DNA of 64,000 nucleotides. Origin: Tritrichomonas musculus (taxonomy: Eukaryota > Parabasalia > Tritrichomonadida > Tritrichomonadidae). The stretch covers positions 310,001-374,000 of the forward strand of contig JAPFFF010000008.1 of NCBI GenBank assembly GCA_039105265.1, written 5' to 3'. A model generated the notes under the pieces. The model was not told the origin of the DNA, did no database searches, and worked only from the letters and a program-made list of their open reading frames with translations. Positions 27,424 through 59,038 of this stretch are shown here, piece after piece. The first letter of the stretch is position 1, and every line of letters begins with the position of its first letter. Both the position numbers and the translations under genes were made by a program.

Positions 27424-28060
27424 ATTATCATAGAAGCATCAAAATGAAATTTCACATTTATTTACTAATAAACTATTTAAGTTATCATTTATTTGTTTAT
27501 TATCTTAAATCAAAACTAAAATTATTTTGAATTCAAAACAAAGTTGAAGTCTGGGTTATTTATCGATAAGATTTGATAACGGTTTTGTTCGTTATGAATA
27601 TATCAAAAATATTGAGAAAAATTCATATAATGATAAATATCAATGCCATTTTCTCACCAAAGCTCTCACATTTTAAAATTCATTCGATATTTATTGTTCG
27701 AACCGATCTCAAAAATATACGGAAAATCTTAGTTTTTTGTCAAATCTCAATAATTATTTTATACGATTAAAGCCTTGATTATTTTTATAATATATATTAA
27801 TAAATAATAAATTATTTTAATTAAATTTTAACTTTTTGATGCGGTTGGAGAAAAATTTTATTCATTGAAAAAATATTTTTTGGGGGATATCATGCAATCA
27901 AGTTTCTTGTTTCAGTTTACATATAATAGTTGTCAAAAAGATAAAAAATAAGTAAATATTTTGAAAAAAGTTTTCTGTTCATTGACATACATAAAGATCA
28001 ATATGTATAAAGTTCAAATATATTTAAAAAAAAGAGTATAATAAAATATTAATTTAATTT
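27424..28060. other. AT-rich stretch, no supported gene
   Basis: A 65-codon frame at 27573 has a composition expected of AT-rich spacer. Nothing else was found. Confidence 0.5.
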
Positions 28061-28184
28061 AATAAAGATATCCTTTTAATAGTTCTTTTATTTCTTCATT
28101 ATCAGTCATATCTATTGGTTTTCTCCAAAAATAAAACAAATGAATCATTAAATTATAATTTGAATTTGATTTAAAATTTGAATT

Positions 28185-28292
28185 TGAACTTCATCTTTGG
28201 CATTGAGATCTATATCTCTACAGCATAATAATAGTTGAATGATTTCTATATTTTCATTTTTTACAGCAATATGTAAAGCAGTTGTATGAACA
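28185..28292 (-). pseudogene. Isolated ankyrin-repeat module D
   Basis: The minus strand reads TTALHIAVKNENIEIIQLLL then CCRDIDLNAKDE, one ankyrin unit of the family. It is flanked by AT-rich repeat rather than by further units and is collinear with modules at 29850, 30197 and 31592 and with the gene at 31810. Confidence 0.7.
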
Positions 28293-29849
28293 AAAAATTA
28301 ATCTAAATTTGGTAAAAACATAATAATTTTAATTTTATAAAAAACAATTAATTAAAAATTACATAAATATTTTTTTTGAAATTTTATACAATAATAATCT
28401 GAAATGTAATATAATTTTTAAATTTAAATTTTATGAATTGATAATATTGAAATTATATTGAAATGATTAATATTAATTTTATAAAATTAATATGATTTGT
28501 GAATATTATTAAAAATCAAAATTGAAATTGCATTGAAATATGATATTTAAAATTATGTTTAAGCAATAAATTAAAATTGTATTTAAATTGAAAATTTAAG
28601 ATTGCATTCAATTAAATATGAAATTGCAAAAAAAAATTAAATATTGAATTCCAAAAATAAAATTTAAATCAAATGTGATTAAAATATCAGTTTTCCAATT
28701 ATATAAAAATTATTTTTTTGAAACCAAATAAAAAAAATTTATGATAAAATTAAATTTAAAAAAATGATTTAAAATTTCATTAACAATATATGATTTTAAA
28801 CTATATTAATTTTAATAGTAAAACTGCATTCAAATGTGATAAAATAAACTCCGTTAAAGTTTTGAATATTAAAATTACATAAATATTTTTTTAAGAAATT
28901 ATATGAAATTATGAAACTTTCAAATTACATTAAAATTATATTTGAAATATAATGAGAATTTTTTTTAAAAAAATTCCATAAAAATATTAGCCGAGAAATA
29001 TCATTAAGGGAAAAATGTTTTTAAAACAATTTTATAAAAAAAATATTCAAAATTGTATTAAATTAAAAAAATGAAATGTCATTAAATATTTAAATATAAA
29101 ATTTTACAAAAACAATTAGCACCAAATTTGATAAAAAATGTTAATATAAAATATTGTTAATATAGTTATGTTGAAATTAGGTTAAAATAATTCATTAAAA
29201 ACGAAATAAAAAATATTGAATTTTAAAATTACATGAAAAAATAATATTATGAATTGTACTAAAAGAATTAATAAAAATTTCATTAAACAATTTAATTAGA
29301 ATGATATAAAAAATCATTTGAAACAGCATGAAATCAACTAATTTAAAACTCTATTCAAAATTTTATTTTAACTCTATTTAAATTAATTAATTAAATCCAA
29401 TTAAAAAATATAATTTTGAAATTATATAAATATGGTATATTTTAAATATCATAAAACTTTCTGTGAAATTGAATTAAAATAAAATCAATTTAAATTTTAT
29501 AAATAATATTTTTTTCAAATTTCATTAATAAATTTAATTAAAAACTAAATTACAAATATGAATATAAAATTCCATAAAATATTTTAATTATAATTTTATT
29601 AAAAATATTATTTTAGAAACTGAATTTTAAAATAGAATATATAATTCCATTAGAAATATATTTTGAAATAAGATGAATATAATATATTTGGAATTCGATC
29701 TAAATTTTGAATATAAAATTACATTAAAATAAATATTCAAATTGAATTGAAATAATTGTATATTTAACTGCATTAATAACTTGATTCAATTTGATTAAAT
29801 ATATATATATATTGAAATTGCGTTAAAAAATAAAATGCAAATTATTTTC

Positions 29850-29940
29850 ATATTTACATCAATTTCTTGATGCGATAATAATAATTGAACAATTTCAGTA
29901 TTTCCTCTTTCCACTGCGATATGTAATGCTGTTTTATAAA
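29850..29940 (-). pseudogene. Isolated ankyrin-repeat module C
   Basis: The minus strand reads KTALHIAVERGNTEIVQLLL followed by SHQEIDVN, one well-conserved ankyrin unit with no neighbouring unit within about 250 bp. Confidence 0.75.
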
Positions 29941-30196
29941 ATTTAATAATTTATAACTTCATTAATATTGAGTTAAAAACCGTATTAAAATAAATTAAAA
30001 TTTGGTAAATATAAAAAAAGAAACTAGGTAAATATATTATATAAATGTCGTAAAAAAATTTTATTCGAATTTCATTTAATTTTAAAAAAAAAATATTGTG
30101 AAATACTATTTTTAAATTATATTAGAATAGTATATTAAACATCATAAATATATGTATAAAACTAGATAAATTATTAAATGGAAATTAGCTTAGAAT

Positions 30197-30283
30197 TAAC
30201 ATTTATTTTTGGATTTGTTAACAAAAGCTGAACCATCTCTGGATTACCTTTTTCAACTGCAATGTGTAAAGCTGACTTGTTAA
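30197..30283 (-). pseudogene. Isolated ankyrin-repeat module B
   Basis: The minus strand reads KSALHIAVEKGNPEMVQLLL followed by TNPKINVN, a well-conserved unit bounded by AT-rich repeat on both sides. Confidence 0.75.
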
Positions 30284-31591
30284 AGTATAATATAAATTTC
30301 ATTAAATCATGGATTTGAAATTTGATGAAAATAGAAGATTAAATCACATTAAATATAATTTAAAACATGATAAAAAATAATATAAAATTGTATGAAGAAT
30401 TAAACATGGAACTGGATTAAAAAAGTTTTTTTAAAAATTGGATTAAAAATATTTTTATAATTTTTTTATGAAAAATAAAAATTTAAATTTCATTAAAAAA
30501 TATTAAAATTGGATAAAAATTATAATAAAATTTGATGAAAATAACTGATAGAATTGGGTAAACAAATATAATTTGAAATTGGATAAAATAAACAAATCAA
30601 AACTGGATGAAAAAAAACATAAAAACTGGATAAAAGCAATAACATTAAAACTGGATTTAAATCAATATGCTAAAATTGGATGAAAAAAATTTAATTAAAA
30701 TTGGATTAATTATATTAATTTGAAATTGGATAAAAATATTACACAAATTTGATAAAATAAAATTTTAAAAAATTCCATAAAATTATATAAAAAATAATAT
30801 CAGAAATAATTTTTGAAATTCTATAAAAAAAGTAAAATTTGAATCTGATGAAATGAATAGATTTAAATTTGATGAAAAAACATTTTTCTAAATATGATTA
30901 AAAAATAAAAATATAATTTGATGAAAAATTTTAATATTGAATATGATGATAATTTAAAAATTTGAATTATATCAAAAATAATATTAAATATCATATTGCG
31001 TCTTATAAAAAATATTGATATGGAACTAAATTAAAATATACAAATAAAAATCAAATTAGTGAATTAGGGTTGAAATTACATTAAAAATCATTTTTATAAA
31101 ATGTAATAAATAAATAATTATTGTAACTAGATTTGAAAATAATGATTTTAAATATGATTAAAAAAATATATTTTAATGTTGTCTAAAATAATGATTTGAA
31201 ATTAGATTAAAATTAGCAATTACAAATTAGATAAAAAACAATTATGTAAAATTTGATTGAAATAAAAAAATGAAATTTTATTTCAAATAATTTTTATTTC
31301 AAATATGATAAAATATTTTTAATAAAAATTGTATTAAAATGATAAAATTTGAAATGAAATTAATTATATATAAAAATGTCATTTAAAAAAAATTCAAATT
31401 TGATTAAAAAAAAATTGATTTTAAATTTCATTATAAATAAAATAAAAAATTCTTTCATGAAAAAATATATCATAAAATATCAGTATAAAATTAATAATTT
31501 GAAATTTGATAAAAACAAATGAGTTTTAAATTGGATAAGAAAGCATAATAATAAAAATGAAATGAAATATGATAAATTAAAATTATATTTT

Positions 31592-31676
31592 CATTTATAT
31601 TTATTCCTGTTTGTTTTAAAATCAACTGAACAATTTCAGTATTTCCTTTTTCAACTGCTGCATATAATGAATCCTT
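31592..31676 (-). pseudogene. Isolated ankyrin-repeat module A
   Basis: The minus strand reads KDSLYAAVEKGNTEIVQLIL followed by KQTGININ. It lies 130 bp downstream of the stop of the ankyrin gene at 31810, in the position expected for its next repeat. Confidence 0.75.
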
Positions 31677-31809
31677 ATTTTAATATTTTTTTTTAAATTT
31701 GATAAGTAAAAAAATTATTTATGAATAGTATAAAAAAAAATTATTTTTAAAAATTTGATAAATCAATTAATATTTTGAATTGCATTAATGAATAATTAAT
31801 TTTGTAATG

Positions 31810-32943
31810 TTATTCAAAAAAAAAATAATTATTGAAAACAGTTTTTGATGATAAATCTACCAACTTATTCTTTAAAATAAATTCAACAATAGTGAAATAA
31901 TCATTCTTGCAAAATCCACAAAAACTATTCACATCAACTTCAGTAAATTCATCAGTTGTTGAACCAAAATTGTAAAAAAGTGGGAATCCGAGAATTTTCT
32001 CATTACTTTCAAGTTTATAATAATTTTCCAAAATGTAATTCATGAAATCATTATGATGACATTTTGCTGATTCCAAATAGCAATCAATAAAAGATTCATC
32101 TTTTGGCTTGAGTTCATTATTTTCAAGAAGATGAACCAAGTCTGCATTTTTTGAATGAATTGTATAAAGCCACAATGAAGGAGTCAATTTTACATTGCTT
32201 AGTCTCAAAAATTGAAAGATTTGAATTGATCCAAAGAAAGCTGCATATTCAATTAAACTTACTTCTTTATTTTTGAATAAGAACAAATTTGTCTCAAAAA
32301 TTGATGGCTTAATAATTGTATCAGAAAGTGACAAATTTGTTTGGTTTACATAAGTAACGAATTCTTCAACCAAGTCTTTTTGAATTAATTGGCAAATGTA
32401 TGAATCATTCTCACCATTTTCTCTCATTTGATTATAAACAATCGGATCAATTTTTGATATCTCTGATTTGACTTCTTCGGCCAAATTTCGATCGAAATAA
32501 TATTTGAATTCAGGATAGAAATATTGAGGATAAAACCGTTCTTTGTATTTGTCATTTGAAATAATTAAAAATATCGATTTTTCGGGAATTATTATTTTCT
32601 CTCTCAATAGAAATAATAAAATTCGTTTGTTGTTCTTGAAAATATTGAAAACACAAAAATTCGAGAAATATTTGTTGATTTCTTTATGAAAAAGTTTGAT
32701 AATTTGCTCAATTTTGCTGAAAAAATCATGCGCTCTTTGATGATTATCTGCTATTTTGGAAATTAAATGAAGCAATGACTTCAATTCATGCTTATTGTCT
32801 TTGATGTTCTGCTTGTTGAAATAATCTATCAAATCATTGAAATTTTCGTTACTGATTTCGTCATTTTCTATGAATTCAATGATTAATCTTTGTATTTCTC
32901 TCATTTTATCCATATATTGTTGTATAAATGATATATCTTCCAT
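31810..32943 (-). CDS. DUF3447-type ankyrin-family protein, N-terminal part
   Basis: 377 residues from ATG 32943 (MEDISFIQQYMDK); the longer frame to 33054 is spacer-like. The helical N-terminal domain contains LLHLISKIADNHQRAHDFFS and IFKNNKRILLFLLREKII; the DUF3447 block contains SLIEYAAFFGSIQIFQFLRL and AKCHHNDFMNYILENYY. It ends with one partial ankyrin unit (NDYFTIVEFILKNKL) followed by AT-rich codons and a stop at 31810. Intact relatives continue with many ankyrin units. Here the next units are found as isolated modules 0.1-3.6 kb downstream, so the gene is truncated or interrupted. Ankyrin arrays mediate protein binding; the exact role is unknown. Confidence 0.75.
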   Translation of the reverse strand: MEDISFIQQYMDKMREIQRLIIEFIENDEISNENFNDLIDYFNKQNIKDNKHELKSLLHLISKIADNHQRAHDFFSKIEQIIKLFHKEINKYFSNFCVFNIFKNNKRILLFLLREKIIIPEKSIFLIISNDKYKERFYPQYFYPEFKYYFDRNLAEEVKSEISKIDPIVYNQMRENGENDSYICQLIQKDLVEEFVTYVNQTNLSLSDTIIKPSIFETNLFLFKNKEVSLIEYAAFFGSIQIFQFLRLSNVKLTPSLWLYTIHSKNADLVHLLENNELKPKDESFIDCYLESAKCHHNDFMNYILENYYKLESNEKILGFPLFYNFGSTTDEFTEVDVNSFCGFCKNDYFTIVEFILKNKLVDLSSKTVFNNYFFFE

Positions 32944-33587: not shown

Positions 33588-34066
33588 TTTGAGTGGTACA
33601 AATGACTCAAAATTTATCTTTAATCTAATGTAGTGTTTGACATCTTTATTGTCATTTAATACAAATACATATTCAATTTCATCATTATTCATTTGAAAAC
33701 ATATATCGAAATACATGACTCCTGATCCCCTATCACTTATTTCGCAATAATCATTTTCACCAACTTCATGATTATTAAACCCTTGATAGAAATCAGGCAA
33801 AGCTGGTCCATGTAGTTCAATTTGTTGCCCCATTTGAATTTGGAGATACTTCATAAAACTGCTGCATAATGATATACTTGAATGGGTTAGTAGTTGCATC
33901 CCAATGAACCTCATCTATTGGGTCAACATATTCATCAGCTAAATATATCTTAATATCCCTTGAGTCATTAGTAGTCTTAGCTGAATATGTATATTCAAGC
34001 TTTTCACATGAATCAAGTACACCATGTAAGAACAACCATACCTTGTCTCCTTTATCTAACCTCTAT
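33585..34066 (-). pseudogene. Frameshifted unknown gene of a decayed element
   Basis: Two overlapping minus-strand frames are collinear: the upstream one (from about 34066, GDKVWLFLHGVLDSCEKLEY, no ATG) runs to TTNPFKYIIMQQFYEVSPNS, and the downstream one continues with GQQIELHGPALPDFYQGFNN to SFVPLK. The frame change lies around 33840-33880. Composition is balanced and unlike host spacer. No family was recognised; it probably belonged to the same mobile element as the adjacent HNH gene. Confidence 0.5.
33588..33606 (+). repeat. 19-bp direct repeat, left copy
   Basis: TTTGAGTGGTACAAATGAC occurs here and again at 34558-34576, bracketing about 950 bp that contains the unknown ORFs and most of the HNH gene. 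Confidence 0.85.
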
Positions 34067-34264
34067 GATTATTGGTGTGAGACTAATGAGGGTTTATGTG
34101 ATATTTTAATTAATAAGATAAAAGAGTTAGCTGCTGAGTATTTCGAACCTGAATTTCTTAGTGTAATGATGAAAGATGGTGATTTGGAATTTATAGACCA
34201 AATTGAACACTTTGCCTTTGAGTTCTTAGAGTACAATATATCTATTCTGCCCTCGCATTTATAA
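34043..34264 (+). CDS. Short acidic ORF without ATG, element remnant
   Basis: 73 codons from TTG 34043. Good coding composition (DILINKIKELAAEYFEPEFL), but the first in-frame ATG is internal, so it may be a 5'-truncated gene. It converges on the HNH ORF, overlapping its 3' end by about 20 bp. Unrecognised. Confidence 0.3.
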   Translation: MSPLSNLYDYWCETNEGLCDILINKIKELAAEYFEPEFLSVMMKDGDLEFIDQIEHFAFEFLEYNISILPSHL

Positions 34265-34635
34265 TTTTGGGCATGCCCATGTTATAGTTACTATCAGTTG
34301 GTGTTACCCATCTTAGGTTTCTTAGATGGTAGTCAGCCCTATTCCTATTGATATGGTCTACTTCGATTTTATTTTTATGGTCATCATTAGGTATGAACTG
34401 TCTTGCTCTAAGTAAATGTTTCAAGTAGTAGTTGTCATTTAGACATACTTGTATATACCCCTGAATATGTTTTGCATCTTTGCATATAAAATGATTACTC
34501 TTATGTCTTATAGTAAAGAGGTACCTATTCTGTATCTCATAGTTTTTAGTAAAGCCTTTTGAGTGGTACAAATGACATTCACTAATATTCAAAAGGTAGG
34601 TACGAGATTCTCGAAGTGGGGTACCTGTGCCGTTT
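34242..34635 (-). CDS. HNH endonuclease of homing type (NUMOD/HNH_3-like)
   Basis: The central region carries the HNH signature: IEVDHINRNRADYHLRNLRW preceded by LKHLLRARQFIPNDDHKNK, with conserved DH, N and the NLRWVT end; the usual DNR is DYH here. An upstream block with GYIQVCLNDNYY resembles the NUMOD segment found before HNH in phage and large-virus homing enzymes. The ORF track of codons starts at TTG 34590; the frame is open further to about 34635 without an ATG, so the start is unknown or lost. Such enzymes cut DNA to spread introns, inteins or themselves. It lies between two copies of a 19-bp direct repeat. Confidence 0.7.
34558..34576 (+). repeat. 19-bp direct repeat, right copy
   Basis: Exact second copy of the motif at 33588-33606; on the minus strand it encodes the start region of the HNH ORF (HLYHS). 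Confidence 0.85.
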
Positions 34636-34873
34636 CATAGATGGTGGGCAGTAGTGAGAACCATCTTGGAGAAAAAATATTTTTTTTTTTATCTATGTTA
34701 GGAGTTCGGGTTGACACTGGGGGAGACAGCCCTCGCGGGAACCGACTCCTATATACTACTTCTTATAGCTCCAAAGAAATGTTTGAGATGATGCGATCCG
34801 AGAGCTCCAAGATCAACACATCTATTTTGTGAAATCTGATGAGACAAAGAAGCACAAAGAGAGATAGATTTTT
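34636..34873. other. GC-richer non-coding segment with stem-loops, left flank of the palindromic element
   Basis: Contains TAGGAGT (34699-34705) and ACTCCTA (34745-34751) as arms of an imperfect hairpin extended by CGGGTT/AACCG, and GATGGT/ACCATC arms near 34640-34665. It may be an element terminus or structured RNA. The last five bases are TTTTT, repeated after the right end of the palindromic element. Confidence 0.45.
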
Positions 34874-35097
34874 AGTAGTATAGTATAGGCTGTGGTCGCT
34901 TCTCTCCCCCAGCCTAACCTGCTCGCCACCAAGCTCAGGTACGCCTTCGCTTGGAGCTTCGCATACGGCCGCGGTCGCTATGTTCCCTCTGCCTATACCT
35001 TGTGTCAATTCTGTCACGCTATGACACAATTTCCACAAGCTTCTATACTAGGCGTCAGATTTTGTGTCAGTAACGTGACCAAATATTTACCTTCATA
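34874..35097 (+). repeat. GC-rich terminus of the element, left
   Basis: Much more GC-rich than anything nearby. Contains TGTGTCA (35001-35007) / TGACACA (35022-35028) inverted arms, CCAAGC...GCTTGG arms near 34930-34955, and several TGTCAC/GTGACA-like words. Candidate recognition region for replication or transposition proteins. The mirror copy is at 47465-47688. Confidence 0.6.
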
Positions 35098-35235
35098 AGT
35101 ATAATACCATTAAGAACCTAGTAAACATACAAGCATCTACTTATCATAGAAAACACAACACCCTCATAAGCACAAATACACATCCAATTAAATACACATC
35201 ATTTGTTTTCTTTTTTTGTTTTTATTCTTGTCCAA

Positions 35236-36663
35236 ATGACAACCAAGCAGTATGTTGACTGGAATGTGTTTGAGAGCCTTCCCGTTAAATCATATGAAAT
35301 CACTTATACTAAAAGTGCCTCGCAGCGAGAGCTCGGCTTGAGCGTAGAAGAAGAAGAGATAACCATAGAGAAAGCCATAAAGAAGTTCATCTGCCAAGCG
35401 CCTATTGGTTCAGGCAAATCAACAGCAATAAGGAAATGGATCTATAACACAGTACCTGATAACAAGTTCATACTCATCGTACCTACCATTAACATCGCTG
35501 CGGAGTTCTACTCTAAGTTGTATGTAGCATTAAACAACAATCACCCCGAGAACATAGATGAAATGATAAAGTTATGTGTAAAGGAAGGGGCGTTTAAAGA
35601 GTTTAAGAAAGCCATCAAGCACTTTATACCAGTTGTTATAACTACATTCTCTACCGCATCTAAGTGTCTTGGAGGAATCATAGAGCATTTCTATCACCAC
35701 CAAATAGATTTCAACAGTGAATACACACTCCTTATTGATGAAGCACACCTACTACTAGAACACATATCGTTAATAGAGATCTGTAGAGAGTTTAATAATG
35801 TAGGTTTGATTACTGCTACAGCATCTGACATTTCTTGCTTATCAGTCTTTGAAGAATACGAAAAGATAAACCCATTAGCCGACATCAAATACCACAGAAC
35901 GATATATCTATACAAGCTGAGAAGCAATATGCAAGAGCAAAGAGAGACTATAGCTAAACAAGTACTAGAAGAGATAAAGAGGTATGATAAGATATTAATT
36001 AAGATAGAAGACAAGAATGAATGTGAACGATTAAAGGAGTGTATCGACAATGAACTTAATAAAGCATTGTACAACTCTGATAAGAAGGAAGTAGAGATAA
36101 GTGATGAAGGCAAGTTTGTTAGCACGGAGGACGTTGATATAGTTATTGCTACTTCATGTATCCAATCAGGTCAGTCACTGAAGGAAAATCTATTGTCTAT
36201 ATTCATTCAGACCCCATTAGATACCGTATCATCAGTTGAACAGTTTGTAGGAAGAAACAGGAACGAGAATTCAACAGCTTATCTATACATGAGGCAAGTA
36301 AAGGTACCAGAAGAGAAGTTTACATACAAGGTAGCCAAGAACAGATATAAGACAAGATTAAATCAATTGAGAGCTAATGCATGGCAATCAATGGACAAAA
36401 ATTCATGGATAAGATACATGAGCAAGATTGGAGAAGTTATTGTTGAAGAGACAAACGCCTCGCTCGAGGAAGAAACAAATAAGGATACAATAATGATAAA
36501 CGAAAATGATTTGAACAGAGAGTTTAATGGCAAGAAACAGTTATATCAACACTTTGGGTTTAAAAACGAGAAGGAAGTGCCTGAGGGATATGAAATAAGA
36601 AGTAGATATAACAGAGAGAAAGGTAAAATGCAAAGAGTATATAATTTAGTTAAGATAGAGTAA
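35236..36663 (+). CDS. SF2 helicase (DEAH), left-arm copy
   Basis: 475 residues from ATG 35236 (MTTKQYVDWN); the frame's earlier TTG start at 35203 adds a spacer-like hydrophobic leader. Motifs: Walker A GSGKST (58-63), motif Ia LIVPT (80-84), DEAH (168-171), motif III TATAS (193-197), motif V VIATSCIQSGQSL (303-315) and motif VI QFVGRNR (336-342). All catalytic helicase residues are present, so ATP-driven unwinding or translocation is expected. The layout resembles origin-binding or phage-type SF2 helicases rather than chromatin remodelers. It is the only enzyme recognised in the element and likely its replication or mobilisation factor (inference). It is transcribed toward the centre and converges with the 90-residue ORF across the repeat arrays. 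Confidence 0.85.
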   Translation: MTTKQYVDWNVFESLPVKSYEITYTKSASQRELGLSVEEEEITIEKAIKKFICQAPIGSGKSTAIRKWIYNTVPDNKFILIVPTINIAAEFYSKLYVALNNNHPENIDEMIKLCVKEGAFKEFKKAIKHFIPVVITTFSTASKCLGGIIEHFYHHQIDFNSEYTLLIDEAHLLLEHISLIEICREFNNVGLITATASDISCLSVFEEYEKINPLADIKYHRTIYLYKLRSNMQEQRETIAKQVLEEIKRYDKILIKIEDKNECERLKECIDNELNKALYNSDKKEVEISDEGKFVSTEDVDIVIATSCIQSGQSLKENLLSIFIQTPLDTVSSVEQFVGRNRNENSTAYLYMRQVKVPEEKFTYKVAKNRYKTRLNQLRANAWQSMDKNSWIRYMSKIGEVIVEETNASLEEETNKDTIMINENDLNREFNGKKQLYQHFGFKNEKEVPEGYEIRSRYNREKGKMQRVYNLVKIE

Positions 36664-36679
36664 ACCATTCAATTATATA

Positions 36680-37880
36680 TTTTTATTTTATGAAGCAATC
36701 AGCATCTATTAAAATTATTTAGCATCAACAACAACATTTAGTATTAATATCAACATCAGCATCAACAGTATCATTTATTAATATCATCATTTACTATTAA
36801 CATTAACATCAATATCATTTACTATCAACATCATCACCATTTATCATTTATCATCAACATCAGCATCAACAGTATCATTTATTAATATTAATCATCAACA
36901 ACATTTATCATTAACAACAACAGCATCAACAGTATCATTTATTAATATCATCATTTACTATTAACATTAACATCAATATCATTTACTATCAACAACAGCA
37001 TCATCCATCAACGACGGCATTTATCATTAACAACAACAACAACAGCAGTATTAACATTATTTAGCATCAAACAAGAGCATCTATCAGCCAACATTATTAA
37101 TATCATCATCAACCAACAGGCATCATCTATCAACAACAACAACAACAACAACAACATCTATCATTGACAACAATATCAACATTATTTATCATCAACCAAC
37201 ACCATCATCTATCAACACCATCACATATCATCAACATCAGTATTAACATTATTAATATCATCCATCAACAACAGCATCAACATTAACTATCAACAGCATC
37301 TATCATTAACAACAGTATTAACATTATTTAGCATCAACAACAACATCAACCAACAGCATCAACAACAACTATCAACTATCAACAACAACAACAACAGCAT
37401 CTATCATTAACATTATTAATATTATTTAGTATTATCAACAACAACACCATCTATTAACATCTATCGACAACAGCATTTATCATTATCAACAGCATCAACA
37501 TCAACAGCATTTACTATTAACATCTATCATTAACAGCATCTATCGACAACATCAACATCAACACCATCTATTAACATTATTAATATCGACAACAACATTA
37601 TTAATATTATCATCAACAACGGCATTAACAACATCAGTATTAACATTATTTAGTATCATTATCAATGGCATCATATATCAACAACAACAACAGCATCATC
37701 TATCAACATCAATAACAACAGCATCAACCAACAACATCAATAACAACAGTAGTATTAACAACAACATCAACGACGGCATATATTATTAACATCAACAGTA
37801 TCATCCACCAACGACGGCATCATCTATCATTATTAATATCAACAACGGTATCATATATCATTTATCAACAACACCCAAAA
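36680..37880 (+). repeat. ATCAAC/AACAAC-type low-complexity array, left arm
   Basis: About 1.2 kb composed of words such as ATCAACAACA, CATCAACA, TTTATCATTA and ATTAACATTA, strongly purine/pyrimidine-biased (almost no G). It begins directly after the helicase stop. No coding frame. Confidence 0.9.
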
Positions 37881-38168
37881 ATAATGTTAAAGTTTAGTTC
37901 TCAACACCAATCTATTCGTTCAAATGCAAAAGTTCAAAAGTGACAAATCAACATTCCAGTCAATCAGTAATTAGTAATCAACAACAATCGAATCATTAAC
38001 AACATCCACGTATTTTTCATTTAAAGGTGAAGAGGTGAATTGTCACCCGATAAACACCACCTTCTTGTTTTCATTCCTTTCAATTACAACATTCAATAAT
38101 ATTCATTCATTCATTCATTCATTTCTAAATAAGAGGCCAATTTATGTCAATTGCATTAAAGGTTAACA

Positions 38169-38182
38169 GGTTAGATCTAACC
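38169..38182. promoter_or_regulatory. Palindromic motif GGTTAGATCTAACC, copy 1
   Basis: Perfect 14-bp palindrome within a longer conserved block that also has GGTTAACA on one side and CTATTTTTCTAACC on the other. Candidate protein-binding or origin site (inference). Mirror at 44380-44393. Confidence 0.5.
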
Positions 38183-39285
38183 CTATTTTTCTAACCTTAT
38201 TGCTTCCGATCAATTCGTTCAATTCCATTCATTCAACATCATTCATTCAATTCCATTCAATTCGTTTAATAGTGTAGTTAATTTGTTCATTCAACTCAGT
38301 TCGTTTAATAGTATAGTTAATTCGTTCAATATATTCGACATTATTCATTCATTCAAATGCATTCGTTCGTTTAATTCAATTCATTTAATTCGTTCAATTC
38401 ATTTATTCATTCCAGTCAATTCGATTCGTTCATTCATTCACAATAAGGTCAAATACGAGGTGAATTGTCGCCTTCTGTCTTCGATCAACAACCACAACAT
38501 GAAACAGAAAATGGAGTGAACAGATTCATTTCATTCGTTTGTTCAATTCAATCTATTCGTTCAAAACCAGCACCCAATTTATGTAAAATGCATTAACTAG
38601 AAATATTGATAATTAGGTTCAATTCATTCATTCAATTCGTTCGTTCAATTCATTTGTTTCATTCAATTACAGTCATTCAATAACATCATTTAATTCATTC
38701 AATACTATCATTCAATTTGTTCAATAACACTTGCAATAACATTCACAACAAGGCCGTTTCATTCAATTCAATCTATTCGTTCGTTCAAAACCAGCACTCA
38801 TTCAATTCATTTATTCATTCCAGTCAATTCGATTCGTTCATTCATTCACAATAAGGTCAAATACGAGGTGAATTGTTTCCTTCTGTTTTCATTCAACAAC
38901 CACAACATGAAACAGAAAATGGAGTGAACAGATGACCGATCAAATGCATTCACTCAATTTATTCGTTCAATTCGTTCAATTCATTTAATAACATCATTCA
39001 ATTCGTTCACTCAATTTATTCATTCAATTCGTTCAATCTATTCGACATTATTCATTCATTCAAATAAGAGGTCAAATGCATTAATGAGAAATAACACTTA
39101 CAATAATATTTACAACAAAGCCGTTTCATTCATTTGTTCATTCCAGCCAATTCATTTGTTCAATAAGGTCATTTAATAGGGTAGTTAATTTGCTTAATAC
39201 TATCATTCATTCGATTCCATTCGACATTATTCGTTCAAAACAAGCACTCAATTTATGTAAAATGCATTAAAGGTTAGAAAAATAG

Positions 39286-39299
39286 GGTTAGATCTAACC
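39286..39299. promoter_or_regulatory. Palindromic motif GGTTAGATCTAACC, copy 2
   Basis: Same motif and the same flanking words as copy 1 but in opposite orientation. Mirror at 43263-43276. Confidence 0.5.
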
Positions 39300-40202
39300 T
39301 GTTAACCTTATTGCTTCCAGCCAATTCATTTGTTCATTCCATTCAATTTGTTCAATAACACTTGCAATAACATTCACAAAAAGGTCAATTCATTCTATTC
39401 ATTCATTTGTTCGTTCAATTCATTTGTTTCATTCAATTCAACGCACATTCACAACAAGAAAGAGTGGGATAATACTTTCATTCAATTCATTTATTCAATT
39501 CCATTTCTAAATACTAAGGCGAATTGTATTAAAGGTGAGCAGGTGAAATGTCACTATATTTTTGTCACCTCTGCTTTCGATCAACAGCAACAACATGAAA
39601 CAGAGAAATATGGACCAATCAAATGCATTCATTCAAACAATTCCATTCAATTCATTCCAGCCAATTCATTTGTTCATTCCATTCAATTTGTTCAATAAGG
39701 TCATTTAATAGGGTAGTTAATTTGCTTAATACTATCATTCATTCAATTCCATTCGACATCATTTATTCAATTCCATTCGATTCTATTCATTAATTCAATT
39801 CGTTTATTCGTTTCATTCGTTCAATAACACTTATAATAATTCATGTCAAATACAGGTGACGAAAATCGGGTGAGAATTCACCTCTTCACCCTGACTATAT
39901 TTTTCAAATAAGAGGCCATTTCATTCGTTCGTTCATTTCATTCAATTCATTCAATTCATTCATTCGTTCGTTCGTTCATTCAATTCATTCAATTCGTTTA
40001 ATAATTAGATTCGTTCAAGTACTAAGGTTAATTCACTTTAATAATCAATAATGCTTCTTAGATAATGTAATGGACAGGTCAAATACAGGTCGAATACTAA
40101 GGCCAATTCATGTAAAATGCATTTAACAAATACCGCTTCGTGTCACTGAATAGAACAAGTAAGATAAAGATGACAGGTCAATTACAAGGGTTAGAAAAAT
40201 AG

Positions 40203-40216
40203 GGTTAGATCTAACC
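40203..40216. promoter_or_regulatory. Palindromic motif GGTTAGATCTAACC, copy 3
   Basis: Same orientation as copy 2, with GGTTAGAAAAATAG upstream and CTCTTCACC downstream. Mirror at 42346-42359. This copy lies outside the array, between it and the 90-residue ORF. Confidence 0.5.
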
Positions 40217-40427
40217 TCTTCACCTTATTAGTAATCAGTTCATAAAAATGAAGTGGACAGATATAAGTAAAATAAATGAAAATATTTTTTGGTTTCGCTA
40301 ATGTCACTGTGTCACTAGATGTCACTGGATAAATCGTTTCCTAAAAAATGGAGCGGACAGATGACAGATGACAGAACATAAACCCCTTTTTTAATATTAT
40401 TCCAGCGAAGACAAAAATAATATATTA

Positions 40428-40700
40428 TTAGATCAACTCATTCATAACTTCATTTAATACACCAAGGCACTTATCATTAACTGAATCCTTCTTGTCTACG
40501 ATTAATATTAAATTACCATTCCTTTTAGTAAACTTGTATCCAGTTATCTTAATCTGATTATTAAGTTCCTTAGTATTAAATTGATTACAGTAAGGATTAT
40601 TCTTTATAAGCTTCCTTAATGGTTTAATCTCATCTCTCTTAGCTAGCTCACTTATGAAGTTAAACAAAATTTCTTTTTCACTAATATCATAAATATTCAT
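40428..40700 (-). CDS. 90-residue protein, left-arm copy
   Basis: ATG 40700 to TAA/TAG at 40428. Charged, mostly helical N-half (EKEILFNFISELAKRDEIKP) and a short beta-like segment (IKITGYKFTKRNGNLILIV). No cysteine cluster, signal or transmembrane segment. It follows the acidic-protein gene by about 33 bp on the same strand, so the two may be co-expressed. No family was recognised. It could be a small DNA-binding or regulatory protein, but nothing proves it. Confidence 0.7.
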   Translation of the reverse strand: MNIYDISEKEILFNFISELAKRDEIKPLRKLIKNNPYCNQFNTKELNNQIKITGYKFTKRNGNLILIVDKKDSVNDKCLGVLNEVMNELI

Positions 40701-40733
40701 TTAAATATAAACAAAAATAATAACAAAGATTGC

Positions 40734-41354
40734 TTACTTATTAATCATATCAGCAAAGACTTTATTTCTCCTCATCATCTTAGGCATCGGTTCGTAATAA
40801 ACTATATCAACATCATCGCTCGAGTCATCTTCTTTATTCTGTTTAATTACCTCGTTTATTATTTCTTTAGTAAGTTTCTTGTGCTCCTTTCGTTCTCTTT
40901 CTTTCTTTAAGTACTCGTTTATCTGTTGCAATTCTTGTAGTATCTGTAAACTGATATAAATTGGATCTAGATTAAGGTGGTGATTAAACTTAGGGCTGTA
41001 TAAAGGAGGTTGTTCGTCTTCTTCATCTTTATTATTTGTATTATCATCTTCTTTATTATTTGTATCTTGTTCGTCATCATCATCGCTAGAGGCTTCTTCG
41101 TCATCTCTTTTTGTTTCTCGTTCGTCTTGTTCTCTTTTTGTATTATCTCGTTCGGCATCTCTTTTTATATTATCTTCATTGTCGGCATCTTCATCGTCGC
41201 TTACTTCTAATGGCTCCTTTCGTTTCTTAAGAATATATTTTCCGTCTTTGCGTGTTGGATAAACTTCGTAAAACGGGTCTTCGATTCCTCTTAACCATTT
41301 GTTTATTATCTGTAATCGTTTTGTGCCTTTCAAGTATTCACCAGATTTGCTCAT
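40734..41354 (-). CDS. Acidic Asp/Glu-rich protein, complete copy spanning the centre
   Basis: 206 residues from ATG 41354. The N-terminal 45 residues are basic and folded-looking (MSKSGEYLKGTKRLQIINKW); the middle (about 50-115) is a highly acidic low-complexity stretch (EASSDDDDEQDTNNKEDDN); the C-terminal part is helical and charged (QILQELQQINEYLKKERERK) with a likely coiled coil and a basic end (PKMMRRNKVF). Its 5' third lies in the unique spacer, so only this copy is complete. Acidic tails with coiled coils occur in replication and chromatin proteins, but the function here is unknown. Confidence 0.7.
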   Translation of the reverse strand: MSKSGEYLKGTKRLQIINKWLRGIEDPFYEVYPTRKDGKYILKKRKEPLEVSDDEDADNEDNIKRDAERDNTKREQDERETKRDDEEASSDDDDEQDTNNKEDDNTNNKDEEDEQPPLYSPKFNHHLNLDPIYISLQILQELQQINEYLKKERERKEHKKLTKEIINEVIKQNKEDDSSDDVDIVYYEPMPKMMRRNKVFADMINK

Positions 41355-41438
41355 TTACAATAATAGTAAAAAGTAAGTTCGGTAAGTATTGGTAATTGCA
41401 AATATTATTATTAGTTAGTATTGTTTTTTCCTATTTTT
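41124..41438. other. Unique 315-bp centre of the palindromic element
   Basis: Holds the 5' third of the acidic gene (41124-41354, minus) and 84 bp of AT-rich DNA upstream of its ATG, presumably its promoter. Neither half is repeated elsewhere in the window. It acts as the loop of the inverted repeat. Confidence 0.85.
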
Positions 41439-41828
41439 GAACGAGAAACAAAAAGAGATGACGAAGAAGCCTCTAGCGATGATGATGACGAACAAGATAC
41501 AAATAATAAAGAAGATGATAATACAAATAATAAAGATGAAGAAGACGAACAACCTCCTTTATACAGCCCTAAGTTTAATCACCACCTTAATCTAGATCCA
41601 ATTTATATCAGTTTACAGATACTACAAGAATTGCAACAGATAAACGAGTACTTAAAGAAAGAAAGAGAACGAAAGGAGCACAAGAAACTTACTAAAGAAA
41701 TAATAAACGAGGTAATTAAACAGAATAAAGAAGATGACTCGAGCGATGATGTTGATATAGTTTATTACGAACCGATGCCTAAGATGATGAGGAGAAATAA
41801 AGTCTTTGCTGATATGATTAATAAGTAA
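41421..41828 (+). pseudogene. Acidic protein, 5'-truncated right-arm copy
   Basis: The homologous part begins at 41439 (ERETKRDDEEASS) and is identical to the left copy to its end. The first 79 residues are absent; the frame opens with MFFPIF from unrelated spacer. The inverted duplication breakpoint therefore lies inside this gene. Confidence 0.75.
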
Positions 41829-41861
41829 GCAATCTTTGTTATTATTTTTGTTTATATTTAA

Positions 41862-42134
41862 ATGAATATTTATGATATTAGTGAAAAAGAAATTTTGTTT
41901 AACTTCATAAGTGAGCTAGCTAAGAGAGATGAGATTAAACCATTAAGGAAGCTTATAAAGAATAATCCTTACTGTAATCAATTTAATACTAAGGAACTTA
42001 ATAATCAGATTAAGATAACTGGATACAAGTTTACTAAAAGGAATGGTAATTTAATATTAATCGTAGACAAGAAGGATTCAGTTAATGATAAGTGCCTTGG
42101 TGTATTAAATGAAGTTATGAATGAGTTGATCTAA
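41862..42134 (+). CDS. 90-residue protein, right-arm copy
   Basis: Identical mirror copy of the left-arm ORF (40428-40700), 33 bp downstream of the truncated acidic gene. Confidence 0.7.
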   Translation: MNIYDISEKEILFNFISELAKRDEIKPLRKLIKNNPYCNQFNTKELNNQIKITGYKFTKRNGNLILIVDKKDSVNDKCLGVLNEVMNELI

Positions 42135-42551
42135 TAATATATTATTTTTGTCTTCGCTGGAATAATATTAAAAAAGGGGTTTATGTTCTGTCATCTGTCA
42201 TCTGTCCGCTCCATTTTTTAGGAAACGATTTATCCAGTGACATCTAGTGACACAGTGACATTAGCGAAACCAAAAAATATTTTCATTTATTTTACTTATA
42301 TCTGTCCACTTCATTTTTATGAACTGATTACTAATAAGGTGAAGAGGTTAGATCTAACCCTATTTTTCTAACCCTTGTAATTGACCTGTCATCTTTATCT
42401 TACTTGTTCTATTCAGTGACACGAAGCGGTATTTGTTAAATGCATTTTACATGAATTGGCCTTAGTATTCGACCTGTATTTGACCTGTCCATTACATTAT
42501 CTAAGAAGCATTATTGATTATTAAAGTGAATTAACCTTAGTACTTGAACGA

Positions 42552-44572
42552 ATCTAATTATTAAACGAATTGAATGAATTGAATGAACGAACGAACGAAT
42601 GAATGAATTGAATGAATTGAATGAAATGAACGAACGAATGAAATGGCCTCTTATTTGAAAAATATAGTCAGGGTGAAGAGGTGAATTCTCACCCGATTTT
42701 CGTCACCTGTATTTGACATGAATTATTATAAGTGTTATTGAACGAATGAAACGAATAAACGAATTGAATTAATGAATAGAATCGAATGGAATTGAATAAA
42801 TGATGTCGAATGGAATTGAATGAATGATAGTATTAAGCAAATTAACTACCCTATTAAATGACCTTATTGAACAAATTGAATGGAATGAACAAATGAATTG
42901 GCTGGAATGAATTGAATGGAATTGTTTGAATGAATGCATTTGATTGGTCCATATTTCTCTGTTTCATGTTGTTGCTGTTGATCGAAAGCAGAGGTGACAA
43001 AAATATAGTGACATTTCACCTGCTCACCTTTAATACAATTCGCCTTAGTATTTAGAAATGGAATTGAATAAATGAATTGAATGAAAGTATTATCCCACTC
43101 TTTCTTGTTGTGAATGTGCGTTGAATTGAATGAAACAAATGAATTGAACGAACAAATGAATGAATAGAATGAATTGACCTTTTTGTGAATGTTATTGCAA
43201 GTGTTATTGAACAAATTGAATGGAATGAACAAATGAATTGGCTGGAAGCAATAAGGTTAACAGGTTAGATCTAACCCTATTTTTCTAACCTTTAATGCAT
43301 TTTACATAAATTGAGTGCTTGTTTTGAACGAATAATGTCGAATGGAATCGAATGAATGATAGTATTAAGCAAATTAACTACCCTATTAAATGACCTTATT
43401 GAACAAATGAATTGGCTGGAATGAACAAATGAATGAAACGGCTTTGTTGTAAATATTATTGTAAGTGTTATTTCTCATTAATGCATTTGACCTCTTATTT
43501 GAATGAATGAATAATGTCGAATAGATTGAACGAATTGAATGAATAAATTGAGTGAACGAATTGAATGATGTTATTAAATGAATTGAACGAATTGAACGAA
43601 TAAATTGAGTGAATGCATTTGATCGGTCATCTGTTCACTCCATTTTCTGTTTCATGTTGTGGTTGTTGAATGAAAACAGAAGGAAACAATTCACCTCGTA
43701 TTTGACCTTATTGTGAATGAATGAACGAATCGAATTGACTGGAATGAATAAATGAATTGAATGAGTGCTGGTTTTGAACGAACGAATAGATTGAATTGAA
43801 TGAAACGGCCTTGTTGTGAATGTTATTGCAAGTGTTATTGAACAAATTGAATGATAGTATTGAATGAATTAAATGATGTTATTGAATGACTGTAATTGAA
43901 TGAAACAAATGAATTGAACGAACGAATTGAATGAATGAATTGAACCTAATTATCAATATTTCTAGTTAATGCATTTTACATAAATTGGGTGCTGGTTTTG
44001 AACGAATAGATTGAATTGAACAAACGAATGAAATGAATCTGTTCACTCCATTTTCTGTTTCATGTTGTGGTTGTTGATCGAAGACAGAAGGCGACAATTC
44101 ACCTCGTATTTGACCTTATTGTGAATGAATGAACGAATCGAATTGACTGGAATGAATAAATGAATTGAACGAATTAAATGAATTGAATTAAACGAACGAA
44201 TGCATTTGAATGAATGAATAATGTCGAATATATTGAACGAATTAACTATACTATTAAACGAACTGAGTTGAATGAACAAATTAACTACACTATTAAACGA
44301 ATTGAATGGAATTGAATGAATGATGTTGAATGAATGGAATTGAACGAATTGATCGGAAGCAATAAGGTTAGAAAAATAGGGTTAGATCTAACCTGTTAAC
44401 CTTTAATGCAATTGACATAAATTGGCCTCTTATTTAGAAATGAATGAATGAATGAATGAATATTATTGAATGTTGTAATTGAAAGGAATGAAAACAAGAA
44501 GGTGGTGTTTATCGGGTGACAATTCACCTCTTCACCTTTAAATGAAAAATACGTGGATGTTGTTAATGATTC
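42552..44572 (-). repeat. TTCATTCAATTCG-type low-complexity array, right arm
   Basis: Mirror copy of 37990-40010 with the same embedded motifs. Confidence 0.9.
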
Positions 44573-44681
44573 GATTGTTGTTGATTACTAATTACTGATT
44601 GACTGGAATGTTGATTTGTCACTTTTGAACTTTTGCATTTGAACGAATAGATTGGTGTTGAGAACTAAACTTTAACATTAT

Positions 44682-45882
44682 TTTTGGGTGTTGTTGATAA
44701 ATGATATATGATACCGTTGTTGATATTAATAATGATAGATGATGCCGTCGTTGGTGGATGATACTGTTGATGTTAATAATATATGCCGTCGTTGATGTTG
44801 TTGTTAATACTACTGTTGTTATTGATGTTGTTGGTTGATGCTGTTGTTATTGATGTTGATAGATGATGCTGTTGTTGTTGTTGATATATGATGCCATTGA
44901 TAATGATACTAAATAATGTTAATACTGATGTTGTTAATGCCGTTGTTGATGATAATATTAATAATGTTGTTGTCGATATTAATAATGTTAATAGATGGTG
45001 TTGATGTTGATGTTGTCGATAGATGCTGTTAATGATAGATGTTAATAGTAAATGCTGTTGATGTTGATGCTGTTGATAATGATAAATGCTGTTGTCGATA
45101 GATGTTAATAGATGGTGTTGTTGTTGATAATACTAAATAATATTAATAATGTTAATGATAGATGCTGTTGTTGTTGTTGTTGATAGTTGATAGTTGTTGT
45201 TGATGCTGTTGGTTGATGTTGTTGTTGATGCTAAATAATGTTAATACTGTTGTTAATGATAGATGCTGTTGATAGTTAATGTTGATGCTGTTGTTGATGG
45301 ATGATATTAATAATGTTAATACTGATGTTGATGATATGTGATGGTGTTGATAGATGATGGTGTTGGTTGATGATAAATAATGTTGATATTGTTGTCAATG
45401 ATAGATGTTGTTGTTGTTGTTGTTGTTGTTGATAGATGATGCCTGTTGGTTGATGATGATATTAATAATGTTGGCTGATAGATGCTCTTGTTTGATGCTA
45501 AATAATGTTAATACTGCTGTTGTTGTTGTTGTTAATGATAAATGCCGTCGTTGATGGATGATGCTGTTGTTGATAGTAAATGATATTGATGTTAATGTTA
45601 ATAGTAAATGATGATATTAATAAATGATACTGTTGATGCTGTTGTTGTTAATGATAAATGTTGTTGATGATTAATATTAATAAATGATACTGTTGATGCT
45701 GATGTTGATGATAAATGATAAATGGTGATGATGTTGATAGTAAATGATATTGATGTTAATGTTAATAGTAAATGATGATATTAATAAATGATACTGTTGA
45801 TGCTGATGTTGATATTAATACTAAATGTTGTTGTTGATGCTAAATAATTTTAATAGATGCTGATTGCTTCATAAAATAAAAA
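44682..45882 (-). repeat. ATCAAC/AACAAC-type low-complexity array, right arm
   Basis: Mirror copy of 36680-37880. Confidence 0.9.
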
Positions 45883-45898
45883 TATATAATTGAATGGT

Positions 45899-47326
45899 TT
45901 ACTCTATCTTAACTAAATTATATACTCTTTGCATTTTACCTTTCTCTCTGTTATATCTACTTCTTATTTCATATCCCTCAGGCACTTCCTTCTCGTTTTT
46001 AAACCCAAAGTGTTGATATAACTGTTTCTTGCCATTAAACTCTCTGTTCAAATCATTTTCGTTTATCATTATTGTATCCTTATTTGTTTCTTCCTCGAGC
46101 GAGGCGTTTGTCTCTTCAACAATAACTTCTCCAATCTTGCTCATGTATCTTATCCATGAATCTTTGTCCATTGATTGCCATGCATTAGCTCTCAATTGAT
46201 TTAATCTTGTCTTATATCTGTTCTTGGCTACCTTGTATGTAAACTTCTCTTCTGGTACCTTTACTTGCCTCATGTATAGATAAGCTGTTGAATTCTCGTT
46301 CCTGTTTCTTCCTACAAACTGTTCAACTGATGATACGGTATCTAATGGGGTCTGAATGAATATAGACAATAGATTTTCCTTCAGTGACTGACCTGATTGG
46401 ATACATGAAGTAGCAATAACTATATCAACGTCCTCCGTGCTAACAAACTTGCCTTCATCACTTATCTCTACTTCCTTCTTATCAGAGTTGTACAATGCTT
46501 TATTAAGTTCATTGTCGATACACTCCTTTAATCGTTCACATTCATTCTTGTCTTCTATCTTAATTAATATCTTATCATACCTCTTTATCTCTTCTAGTAC
46601 TTGTTTAGCTATAGTCTCTCTTTGCTCTTGCATATTGCTTCTCAGCTTGTATAGATATATCGTTCTGTGGTATTTGATGTCGGCTAATGGGTTTATCTTT
46701 TCGTATTCTTCAAAGACTGATAAGCAAGAAATGTCAGATGCTGTAGCAGTAATCAAGCCTACTTTATTAAACTCTCTACAGATCTCTATTAACGATATGT
46801 GTTCTAGTAGTAGGTGTGCTTCATCAATAAGGAGTGTGTATTCACTGTTGAAATCTATTTGGTGGTGATAGAAATGCTCTATGATTCCTCCAAGACACTT
46901 AGATGCGGTAGAGAATGTAGTTATAACAACAGGTATAAAGTGCTTGATGGCTTCCTTAAACTCTTTAAACGCCCCTTCCTTTACACATAACTTTATCATT
47001 TCATCTATGTTCTCGGGGTGATTGTTGTTTAATACTACATACAACTTAGAGTAGAACTCCGCAGCGATGTTAATGGTAGGTACGATGAGTATGAACTTGT
47101 TATCAGGTACTGTGTTATAGATCCATTTCCTTATTGCTGTTGATTTGCCTGAACCAATAGGTGCTTGACAGATGAACTTCTTTATGGCTTTCTCTATGGT
47201 TATCTCTTCTTCTTCTACGCTCAAGCCGAGCTCTCGCTGCGAGGCACTTTTAGTATAAGTGATTTCATATGATTTAACGGGAAGGCTCTCAAACACATTC
47301 CAGTCAACATACTGCTTGGTTGTCAT
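45899..47326 (-). CDS. SF2 helicase (DEAH), right-arm copy
   Basis: Mirror copy of the left-arm helicase, also intact, with all motifs. Residue differences are at 98 (V), 125 (E), 188 (K) and 389 (D), none in a helicase motif. Retention of two open copies suggests either recent duplication, gene conversion or selection. Confidence 0.85.
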   Translation of the reverse strand: MTTKQYVDWNVFESLPVKSYEITYTKSASQRELGLSVEEEEITIEKAIKKFICQAPIGSGKSTAIRKWIYNTVPDNKFILIVPTINIAAEFYSKLYVVLNNNHPENIDEMIKLCVKEGAFKEFKEAIKHFIPVVITTFSTASKCLGGIIEHFYHHQIDFNSEYTLLIDEAHLLLEHISLIEICREFNKVGLITATASDISCLSVFEEYEKINPLADIKYHRTIYLYKLRSNMQEQRETIAKQVLEEIKRYDKILIKIEDKNECERLKECIDNELNKALYNSDKKEVEISDEGKFVSTEDVDIVIATSCIQSGQSLKENLLSIFIQTPLDTVSSVEQFVGRNRNENSTAYLYMRQVKVPEEKFTYKVAKNRYKTRLNQLRANAWQSMDKDSWIRYMSKIGEVIVEETNASLEEETNKDTIMINENDLNREFNGKKQLYQHFGFKNEKEVPEGYEIRSRYNREKGKMQRVYNLVKIE

Positions 47327-47464
47327 TTGGACAAGAATAAAAACAAAAAAAGAAAACAAATGATGTGTATTTAATTGGATGTGTATTTGTGCTTATGAGG
47401 GTGTTGTGTTTTCTATGATAAGTAGATGCTTGTATGTTTACTAGGTTCTTAATGGTATTATACT

Positions 47465-47688
47465 TATGAAGGTAAATATTTGGTCACGTTACTGACACAA
47501 AATCTGACGCCTAGTATAGAAGCTTGTGGAAATTGTGTCATAGCGTGACAGAATTGACACAAGGTATAGGCAGAGGGAACATAGCGACCGCGGCCGTATG
47601 CGAAGCTCCAAGCGAAGGCGTACCTGAGCTTGGTGGCGAGCAGGTTAGGCTGGGGGAGAGAAGCGACCACAGCCTATACTATACTACT
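47465..47688 (-). repeat. GC-rich terminus of the element, right
   Basis: Mirror copy of 34874-35097 with the same inverted arms and TGTCAC words. Confidence 0.6.
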
Positions 47689-47693
47689 TTTTT

Positions 47694-58497: not shown

Positions 58498-59038
58498 AAA
58501 AAATTTGCTCATTCTAACATTAAAAGCATTTATGCAAATCACAATACTATAAATTTTGCTCATTCTAACATTAAAAGCATTTATGCAAATCACAATACTA
58601 AAAAATTTGTAAATTCTAACATTAAAAGCATTTATGCAAATCACAATACTAAAAAATTTGCAAATTCTAACACTAAAAGCATTTATGCAAATCACAATAC
58701 TATAAAATCTGCAAATTCTAACATTAAAATCATTTATGCAAATCACAATACTATAAAATCTGCAAATTCTAACATTAAAATCATTTATGCAAATCACAAT
58801 ACTATAAAATCTGCAAATTCTAACATTAAAAGCATTTATGCAAATCACAATACTATAAAATCTGCAAATTCTAACATTAAAAGCATTTATGCAAATCACA
58901 ATACTATAAAATTTGTAAATTCTAACATTAAAATCATTTATGCAAATCACAATACTATAAAATTTGTAAATTCTAACACTAAAAGCATTTATGCAAATCA
59001 CAATACTATAAAATCTGCAAATTCTAACATTTATAAAT
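58498..59038 (+). repeat. 51-bp tandem repeat, about 10.5 copies
   Basis: The unit encodes SNIKSIYANHNTIKSAN on the plus strand, and both strands stay open (231 codons plus, 168 codons minus). Copies differ at a few fixed positions (TCTGCAAAT, TTTGTAAAT, TTTGCTCAT). It lies 42 bp after the kinase-gene stop and ends in a T-run near 59047. Probably non-coding satellite-like DNA; a repeat protein cannot be excluded. Confidence 0.9.

Follow-up and report, generated by a model that had tools for sequence, protein, structure and literature searches.

The stretch analysed here (the window) comprises 64,000 nucleotides of the genome of the mouse-gut parabasalid Tritrichomonas musculus (GenBank assembly GCA_039105265.1, contig JAPFFF010000008.1, positions 310,001 to 374,000) and holds a palindromic element of about 12.8 kb with a helicase gene in each arm. 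A first-pass annotation of the same DNA had stated that every window position x in 34874–41123 pairs with 82562-x; the 6,250-bp arms and the 315-bp spacer that they enclose (41124–41438) stand, while the pairing falls short of complete by 8 mismatches in 6,250 bp (at 35394, 35400, 35528, 35608, 35631, 35799, 35805 and 36400). Beyond the arm limits, pairing is at the random level, and pairing within the arms is not explicable by chance.

The helicase reading frame is open in both arms (475 amino acids from the ATG) and the left copy, which was scanned, matches Pfam DEAD (2e-11) and ResIII, bearing out the annotation's intact superfamily 2 (SF2) helicase on each side. The low-complexity arrays that it had placed in each arm likewise lie at approximately 36.7–40.0 kb and are mirrored in the other arm. 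Its small open reading frames (ORFs) per arm apply in part: a 90-amino-acid ORF (p90) is present in both arms, whereas a 206-amino-acid ORF (p206) starts within the spacer and is therefore whole on one side only, leaving the gene layout at the centre asymmetric. The annotation had seen no recognisable transposase, integrase or polymerase, and none was recognised in the element here; domain scans of its three ORFs detected no polymerase or integrase domain, neither the rve integrase nor the DNA polymerase B (PolB) domain that is present in a Maverick joined to an arm of this family elsewhere in the genome (locus C10). No capsid gene was recognised in the element, p206 being a homologue of a Maverick gene without an assigned role. 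Profile searching against the PDB gave a single weak match, and in viral contigs nine stretches matched a pattern, none of which was confirmed as a relative.

A mobile, multi-copy palindromic family

The genome search for further copies that had been suggested alongside the first description recovered a family, with at least 41 matches to the helicase DNA in the 193.4 Mb searched and inverted pairs at eight loci of the close family. The evidence consists of integrated copies in assembled sequence, and elements beyond the window were read at their ends and centre. Perfect 5-bp target-site duplications (TTTTT, TGAAC, GTGGT, TTACC, AAAGT, GTTAT and ATATA) border the element at all seven loci readable at both ends, in differing flanks; the eighth palindromic locus, C31, is without its left end, so that a duplication is unreadable. 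The spacer is common to nine loci, with arm sequence on both sides in seven and on one side only at C31 and C12. Insertion is of the whole palindrome, bounded by Maverick-type ends, and the element is both multi-copy and mobile. A 3-base insertion near the turn-around distinguishes C12 from the other eight spacer loci; as a candidate alternative turn-around it was uninterpretable, because C12 lacks the opposite arm.

A search with the helicase protein, in which 90 of 855 candidates were scored, yielded 88 merged loci (56 full length), and all 11 helicase pairs within 20 kb of one another face inward. Two of these pairs (C62 and C7:2.74M) belong to a second, diverged subfamily (helicase identity approximately 84%). 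Relatives of p206 lie between the helicases at 53–57% and 46% identity, with no mirrored p206 piece among the matches listed, from which we infer that the spacer of this subfamily may be wider and contain the whole of p206. In a third pair of the subfamily, C2:1.41M, 38 kb separate the helicases, and a Maverick-ended element of 26.9 kb lies in the gap; both inverted helicases at this locus (G000:C2:1406604-1447631) contain stop codons, and the arrangement resembles a palindrome invaded by a Maverick. A miniature of 4.7 kb (G000:C31:1157198-1161892) has the family's termini on both sides; of its two inward-facing helicases, one is full length and contains stop codons and the other is truncated. 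Close relatives of the helicase and p206 (97–99%) occur on short contigs from other sources, of unproven origin.

Genes of the family as a whole are under purifying selection. All 16 palindromic arms have an open helicase frame, and the mean ratio of nonsynonymous to synonymous differences (pN/pS) is 0.13 among the eight palindromes, an average that uses non-independent pairs; stop codons occur in 4 of 22 full-length close helicases outside the eight palindromes versus none of the 16 palindromic arms. The p206 frame is open in 7 of 7 cases (pN/pS 0.25). From the pN/pS set, 4 of 28 rows were dropped for lack of the expected start, all of them single-arm loci and two the same locus. In an alignment of 24 sequences, 43–85% identical to the query, the invariant helicase residues are G58, G60, K61, S62, D168, E169, H171, Q336, F337 and G339–R342.

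Ends, motif and central gene shared with Mavericks

The first-pass annotation had noted that known foldback elements and Mavericks do not have this gene set. A view of Mavericks as unrelated does not hold: the ends, a 32–40-bp motif and the central gene are common to the element and to Mavericks of the same genome. The ends begin with AGTAGT, inverted at the two termini, and the 17-bp terminus AGTAGTATAGTATAGGC has 315 exact occurrences in the genome and none in a reversed control. Pairing of 50 places, taken from those listed out of 220 counted, gave 16 facing pairs within 30 kb. A C10-type PolB (at least 99% identical) lies inside 9 of the 12 intervals of 22–27 kb and inside none of the 4 shorter ones, its presence having been scored among the best 50 of 1371 candidates. 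All of these best 50 are 99–100% identical, a uniformity that suggests that Mavericks spread in a recent burst.

The motif (GGTTAGAAAAATAGGGTTAGATCTAACCTGTT, 32 bp) is part of a 38–40-bp exact match between the arms and intergenic DNA in the Maverick part of C10, and the 49 kb of window flanks have no 18-base word in common with the arm. Genome-wide it has 69 exact sites and none in the reversed control: 33 near the element family, 25 at distances from PolB that recur (429 bp for 12 of them) and 11 in neither group. Seen from the polymerase, the motif lies within 4 kb at 20 of the 50 listed PolB copies. Several Mavericks carry exact motif copies about 1.2 kb apart in opposite orientation downstream of PolB; at C10, that stretch holds a 339-amino-acid gene (DUF3839), which has one exact copy of the motif and two one-base variants at its flanks. 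Three palindromes likewise show an inverted pair, 1.1–1.3 kb apart, made up of the two exact copies of an arm. For p206, the genome holds more than 100 distant relatives; an rve integrase (150 of 797 candidates) lies 2.36–2.79 kb from 15 of the 103 listed outside the close family (two of them second-subfamily), where 0.8 would be expected.

Ten loci with a single arm were read over 20 kb, and some join the arm to Maverick genes. At C10, the arm is joined to a Maverick with PolB and an HNH protein; the element shares with this Maverick part the motif and a p206 relative only, and with the 24-kb Mavericks also the 17-bp ends. No helicase match was found in the approximately 19.6 kb of the Maverick part read. 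C10 was considered as an intact parent and dropped: its right end is of another type, a test for a matching duplication was negative, its p206 piece has no start and its Maverick part has a p206 relative of its own. At C1:9.38M, the facing end is approximately 10.5 kb away and 4 of 5 duplication bases match. The C3:1.49M element measures 6 kb; repeats of 286 bp lie at its two ends, and the duplication around it is perfect (ATATA), the site being AT-rich. Among 14 single-arm loci at least 93% identical, a set that leaves out the internal fragment C24:431k, 12 stop 10–323 bp before the arm end, and the remaining 2 extend 25 bp beyond it. These breakpoints are suggestive of breakage near the centre, and the single-arm copies look like derivatives.

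The features of the window element are listed in Table 1. Just to its left (33799–34559) lie older Maverick remains, with one fragment 54% identical to a long ORF of the C10 Maverick and another 47% identical to its HNH protein. Elsewhere in the window, 28000–32000 is a block of 14–16% G+C in which degenerate A/T-rich tandem repeats (about 22–26 bp) are numerous, and at 58500–59031 a 51-bp unit is repeated about 10 times with a 95% match.

Table 1 Coordinates of the palindromic element and its parts within the window
Feature	Position	Strand	Remark
Left target-site duplication, TTTTT	34869..34873	.	sits in a T run; the 5 bases vary among the six other loci
Left arm	34874..41123	+	8 mismatches/6250
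17-bp terminal core, left end	34874..34890	+	common to 24-kb Mavericks
SF2 (DEAD/ResIII-like) helicase, left copy, 475 aa	35236..36663	+	
Low-complexity arrays, CAA/ATC-rich then TTCA/TTCG-rich	36700..40040	.	limits approximate
32-bp motif	38165..38196	-	
32-bp motif, second exact copy	39272..39303	+	
Motif, third, shorter copy	40189..40217	+	29 bp exact versus Maverick part of locus C10
p90, 90-aa ORF	40428..40700	-	no function assigned
p206, 206-aa ORF across arm/spacer boundary	40734..41354	-	homologous to Maverick gene
Unique spacer with p206 start	41124..41438	.	
Right arm	41439..47688	-	
Mirrored C-terminal piece of p206, residues 78–206	41439..41825	+	without N-terminal part
Mirrored p90 ORF	41862..42134	+	
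Mirrored low-complexity arrays	42522..45862	.	limits approximate
32-bp motif, right arm	43259..43290	-	
32-bp motif, right arm	44366..44397	+	
Helicase, right copy, 475 aa	45899..47326	-	
17-bp terminal core, right end	47672..47688	-	
Right target-site duplication, TTTTT	47689..47693	.	

Proposed origin and renewal of the palindrome

Over the terminal 1.5–1.8 kb, the two arms of each of the eight elements differ by 8, 7, 3, 1, 0, 1, 0 and 4 substitutions (at most 0.45%), and different elements differ from one another by 0.68–2.62%. A tree of 27 end sequences places the paired arms as sisters in all eight elements. Total length spans 12,207–14,335 bp among seven elements, yet the arms of each agree in length within 0, 0, 0, 0, 1, 1 and 30 bp, and exact motif positions mirror each other within one base in the six palindromes where exact copies were found.

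We consider it likely that the element is a non-autonomous, natively palindromic, multi-copy satellite of Maverick/Polinton elements in T. musculus, moved in trans and with its arms renewed by snap-back; of the identities proposed by the first-pass annotation, a virus satellite fits best. The shared ends, duplications, motif and gene point to mobilisation by Maverick enzymes, in which a co-resident Maverick would provide DNA polymerase B, integrase and possibly the capsid. A strand displaced in replication would fold on itself into a long hairpin, its complementary arms pairing and the 315-bp spacer forming the loop, and copying of this folded strand would renew both arms from one template, such that arms would stay alike while elements diverge. 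It is the identity of the arms that argues for this renewal step, for which gene conversion is the main rival. The helicase could be the satellite's own input to replication, a guess prompted by its conservation and by analogy with transpovirons, and would probably aid the process by unwinding the hairpin or by acting at the shared motif. One-arm copies might then stem from breakage of palindromes or from their recombination, in some cases with Mavericks. A stronger version, in which the coding palindrome is the inherited form, renewed through a kilobase-scale hairpin at each replication and kept at least since before the subfamily split (helicase 84%, p206 46–60% identical), we put forward tentatively, as a possibility somewhat short of probable.

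Several observations weigh against the proposed satellite and its renewal by snap-back. Whole-arm identity comes from the window element alone, the comparison between elements covering the terminal 1.5–1.8 kb. The 8 arm differences of the window element cluster in 1,007 bp (probability by chance 1.5e-5), which implies tract-wise exchange in at least one case, and they form a mosaic of private and shared alleles that speaks against a simple clock. Mean helicase pN/pS among single-arm copies is likewise 0.13, and this equality places selection on the family without singling out the palindromic form. Nor do the palindromes group as a single clade over the terminal 1.8 kb: the label changes 7 times, and well-supported branches demand at least 2 of these changes. 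Such a scatter would result from recurrent derivation of single-arm copies from palindromes, or from recombination among copies. Among the chimeras, C9 has the right end of another Maverick type and a target duplication matching at 4 of 5 bases, no matching target duplication was found at C10, and no integrase was seen in C10, whose right end lay outside the stretch read. No intact progenitor with helicase, PolB and integrase was found.

The same satellite could instead have had its arms homogenised after integration, by gene conversion between inverted arms and with no snap-back beforehand. The confinement of the window's arm differences, with the inner 4.7 kb identical, is in line with this, as is the match of some of its left-arm alleles to other copies; yet in 4 of 7 elements the two arms have exactly the same length, and two elements (C30 and C8:2.36M) show no differences in the 1.75 kb compared, for both of which a single template at insertion is the simplest account, and we regard conversion alone as rather unlikely. 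We give still less credence to a defective genome, that is, a snap-back deletion derivative made repeatedly from living helicase-bearing Mavericks and having no lineage of its own. Adeno-associated virus is reported to produce snapback genomes (PMC8235507), longer helicase relatives exist in the genome (open frames of 498–598 amino acids, 44–63% identical) and the turn-around of the second subfamily seems different, judging from the lack of a mirrored p206 among the matches listed; against this, nine loci with one spacer indicate a single event that was propagated, and the Maverick part of C10 is free of helicase matches over the approximately 19.6 kb read.

The palindromic form and the element's own helicase had first suggested a hairpin-ended linear replicon, here taken as a self-sufficient plasmid or virus integrating as a head-to-head dimer. 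This idea is neither supported nor needed, and we find it very improbable: the ends are Maverick-type, with the 17-bp terminus common to 24-kb Mavericks and 5-bp duplications at 7 of 7 loci readable at both ends, and a polymerase or integrase domain was recognised in none of the three ORFs. An assembly artefact, or a chance head-to-head insertion of two elements, is scarcely credible. The PacBio reads of the assembly do average 8.9 kb (PMC11978803), below the length of the element; however, the same spacer recurs at seven loci with differing flanks and perfect target-site duplications, there are arm-specific substitutions, and convergent helicase pairs occur in the second subfamily too. Two unrelated insertions lying head to head are ruled out by the shared spacer.

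Known systems and wider meaning

Very long inverted repeats and repetitive subterminal DNA are also features of foldback transposons, from which the element differs in that its ends, duplications and motif are Maverick-type and its arms encode selected proteins. Two end motifs have been reported for Mavericks of vertebrates; one is (AGT)2//(ACT)2, and the target-site duplication there is 6 bp (PMC8097293). The element resembles Mavericks/Polintons in its 5′-AGTAGT...ACTACT-3′ ends and short duplications (PMC8097293), together with its p206 relative and the 32–40-bp motif of local Mavericks; it differs in being wholly palindromic, in having no recognised PolB, integrase or capsid gene and in its duplication of 5 bp as against the 6 bp of vertebrates (PMC8097293).

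The transpovirons of Mimiviridae are likewise dependent, linear plasmid-like elements with terminal inverted repeats; they carry a helicase followed on its 3′ side by tandem repeats, and their regulatory elements resemble those of the host virus (PMC7031253). They are about 7 kb long with inverted repeats of 380–520 nucleotides, are not described as palindromic in the available text of that source and depend on giant viruses (PMC7031253); their helicase is tied to superfamily 1 by the title of a reference cited there, whereas that of the element belongs to superfamily 2. The defective 5′ snapback genomes (5′-SBG) of adeno-associated virus share the snapback configuration, carry part of a replication gene and need the full virus, but these are replication and encapsidation products of one virus (PMC8235507), unlike the element, with its propagated lineage, conserved spacer and open genes.

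Mavericks are reported to make up about one-third of the genome in Trichomonas vaginalis and in Tritrichomonas foetus (PMC10120064), and the word 'Maverick' is absent from the main text of the T. musculus genome paper (PMC11978803). In the titles and abstract openings surveyed, we found no palindromic, non-autonomous or satellite element of Mavericks/Polintons like the present one, nor any gene-bearing dependants of Mavericks analogous to virophages or transpovirons, subscription journals being mostly outside the coverage.

A palindromic satellite with open, selected genes offers a handle on how Mavericks replicate, through strand displacement and folding. If the snap-back model is true, divergence between arms could date insertions in the way that long terminal repeat divergence does. 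The satellite also bears on whether Mavericks can themselves be parasitised.

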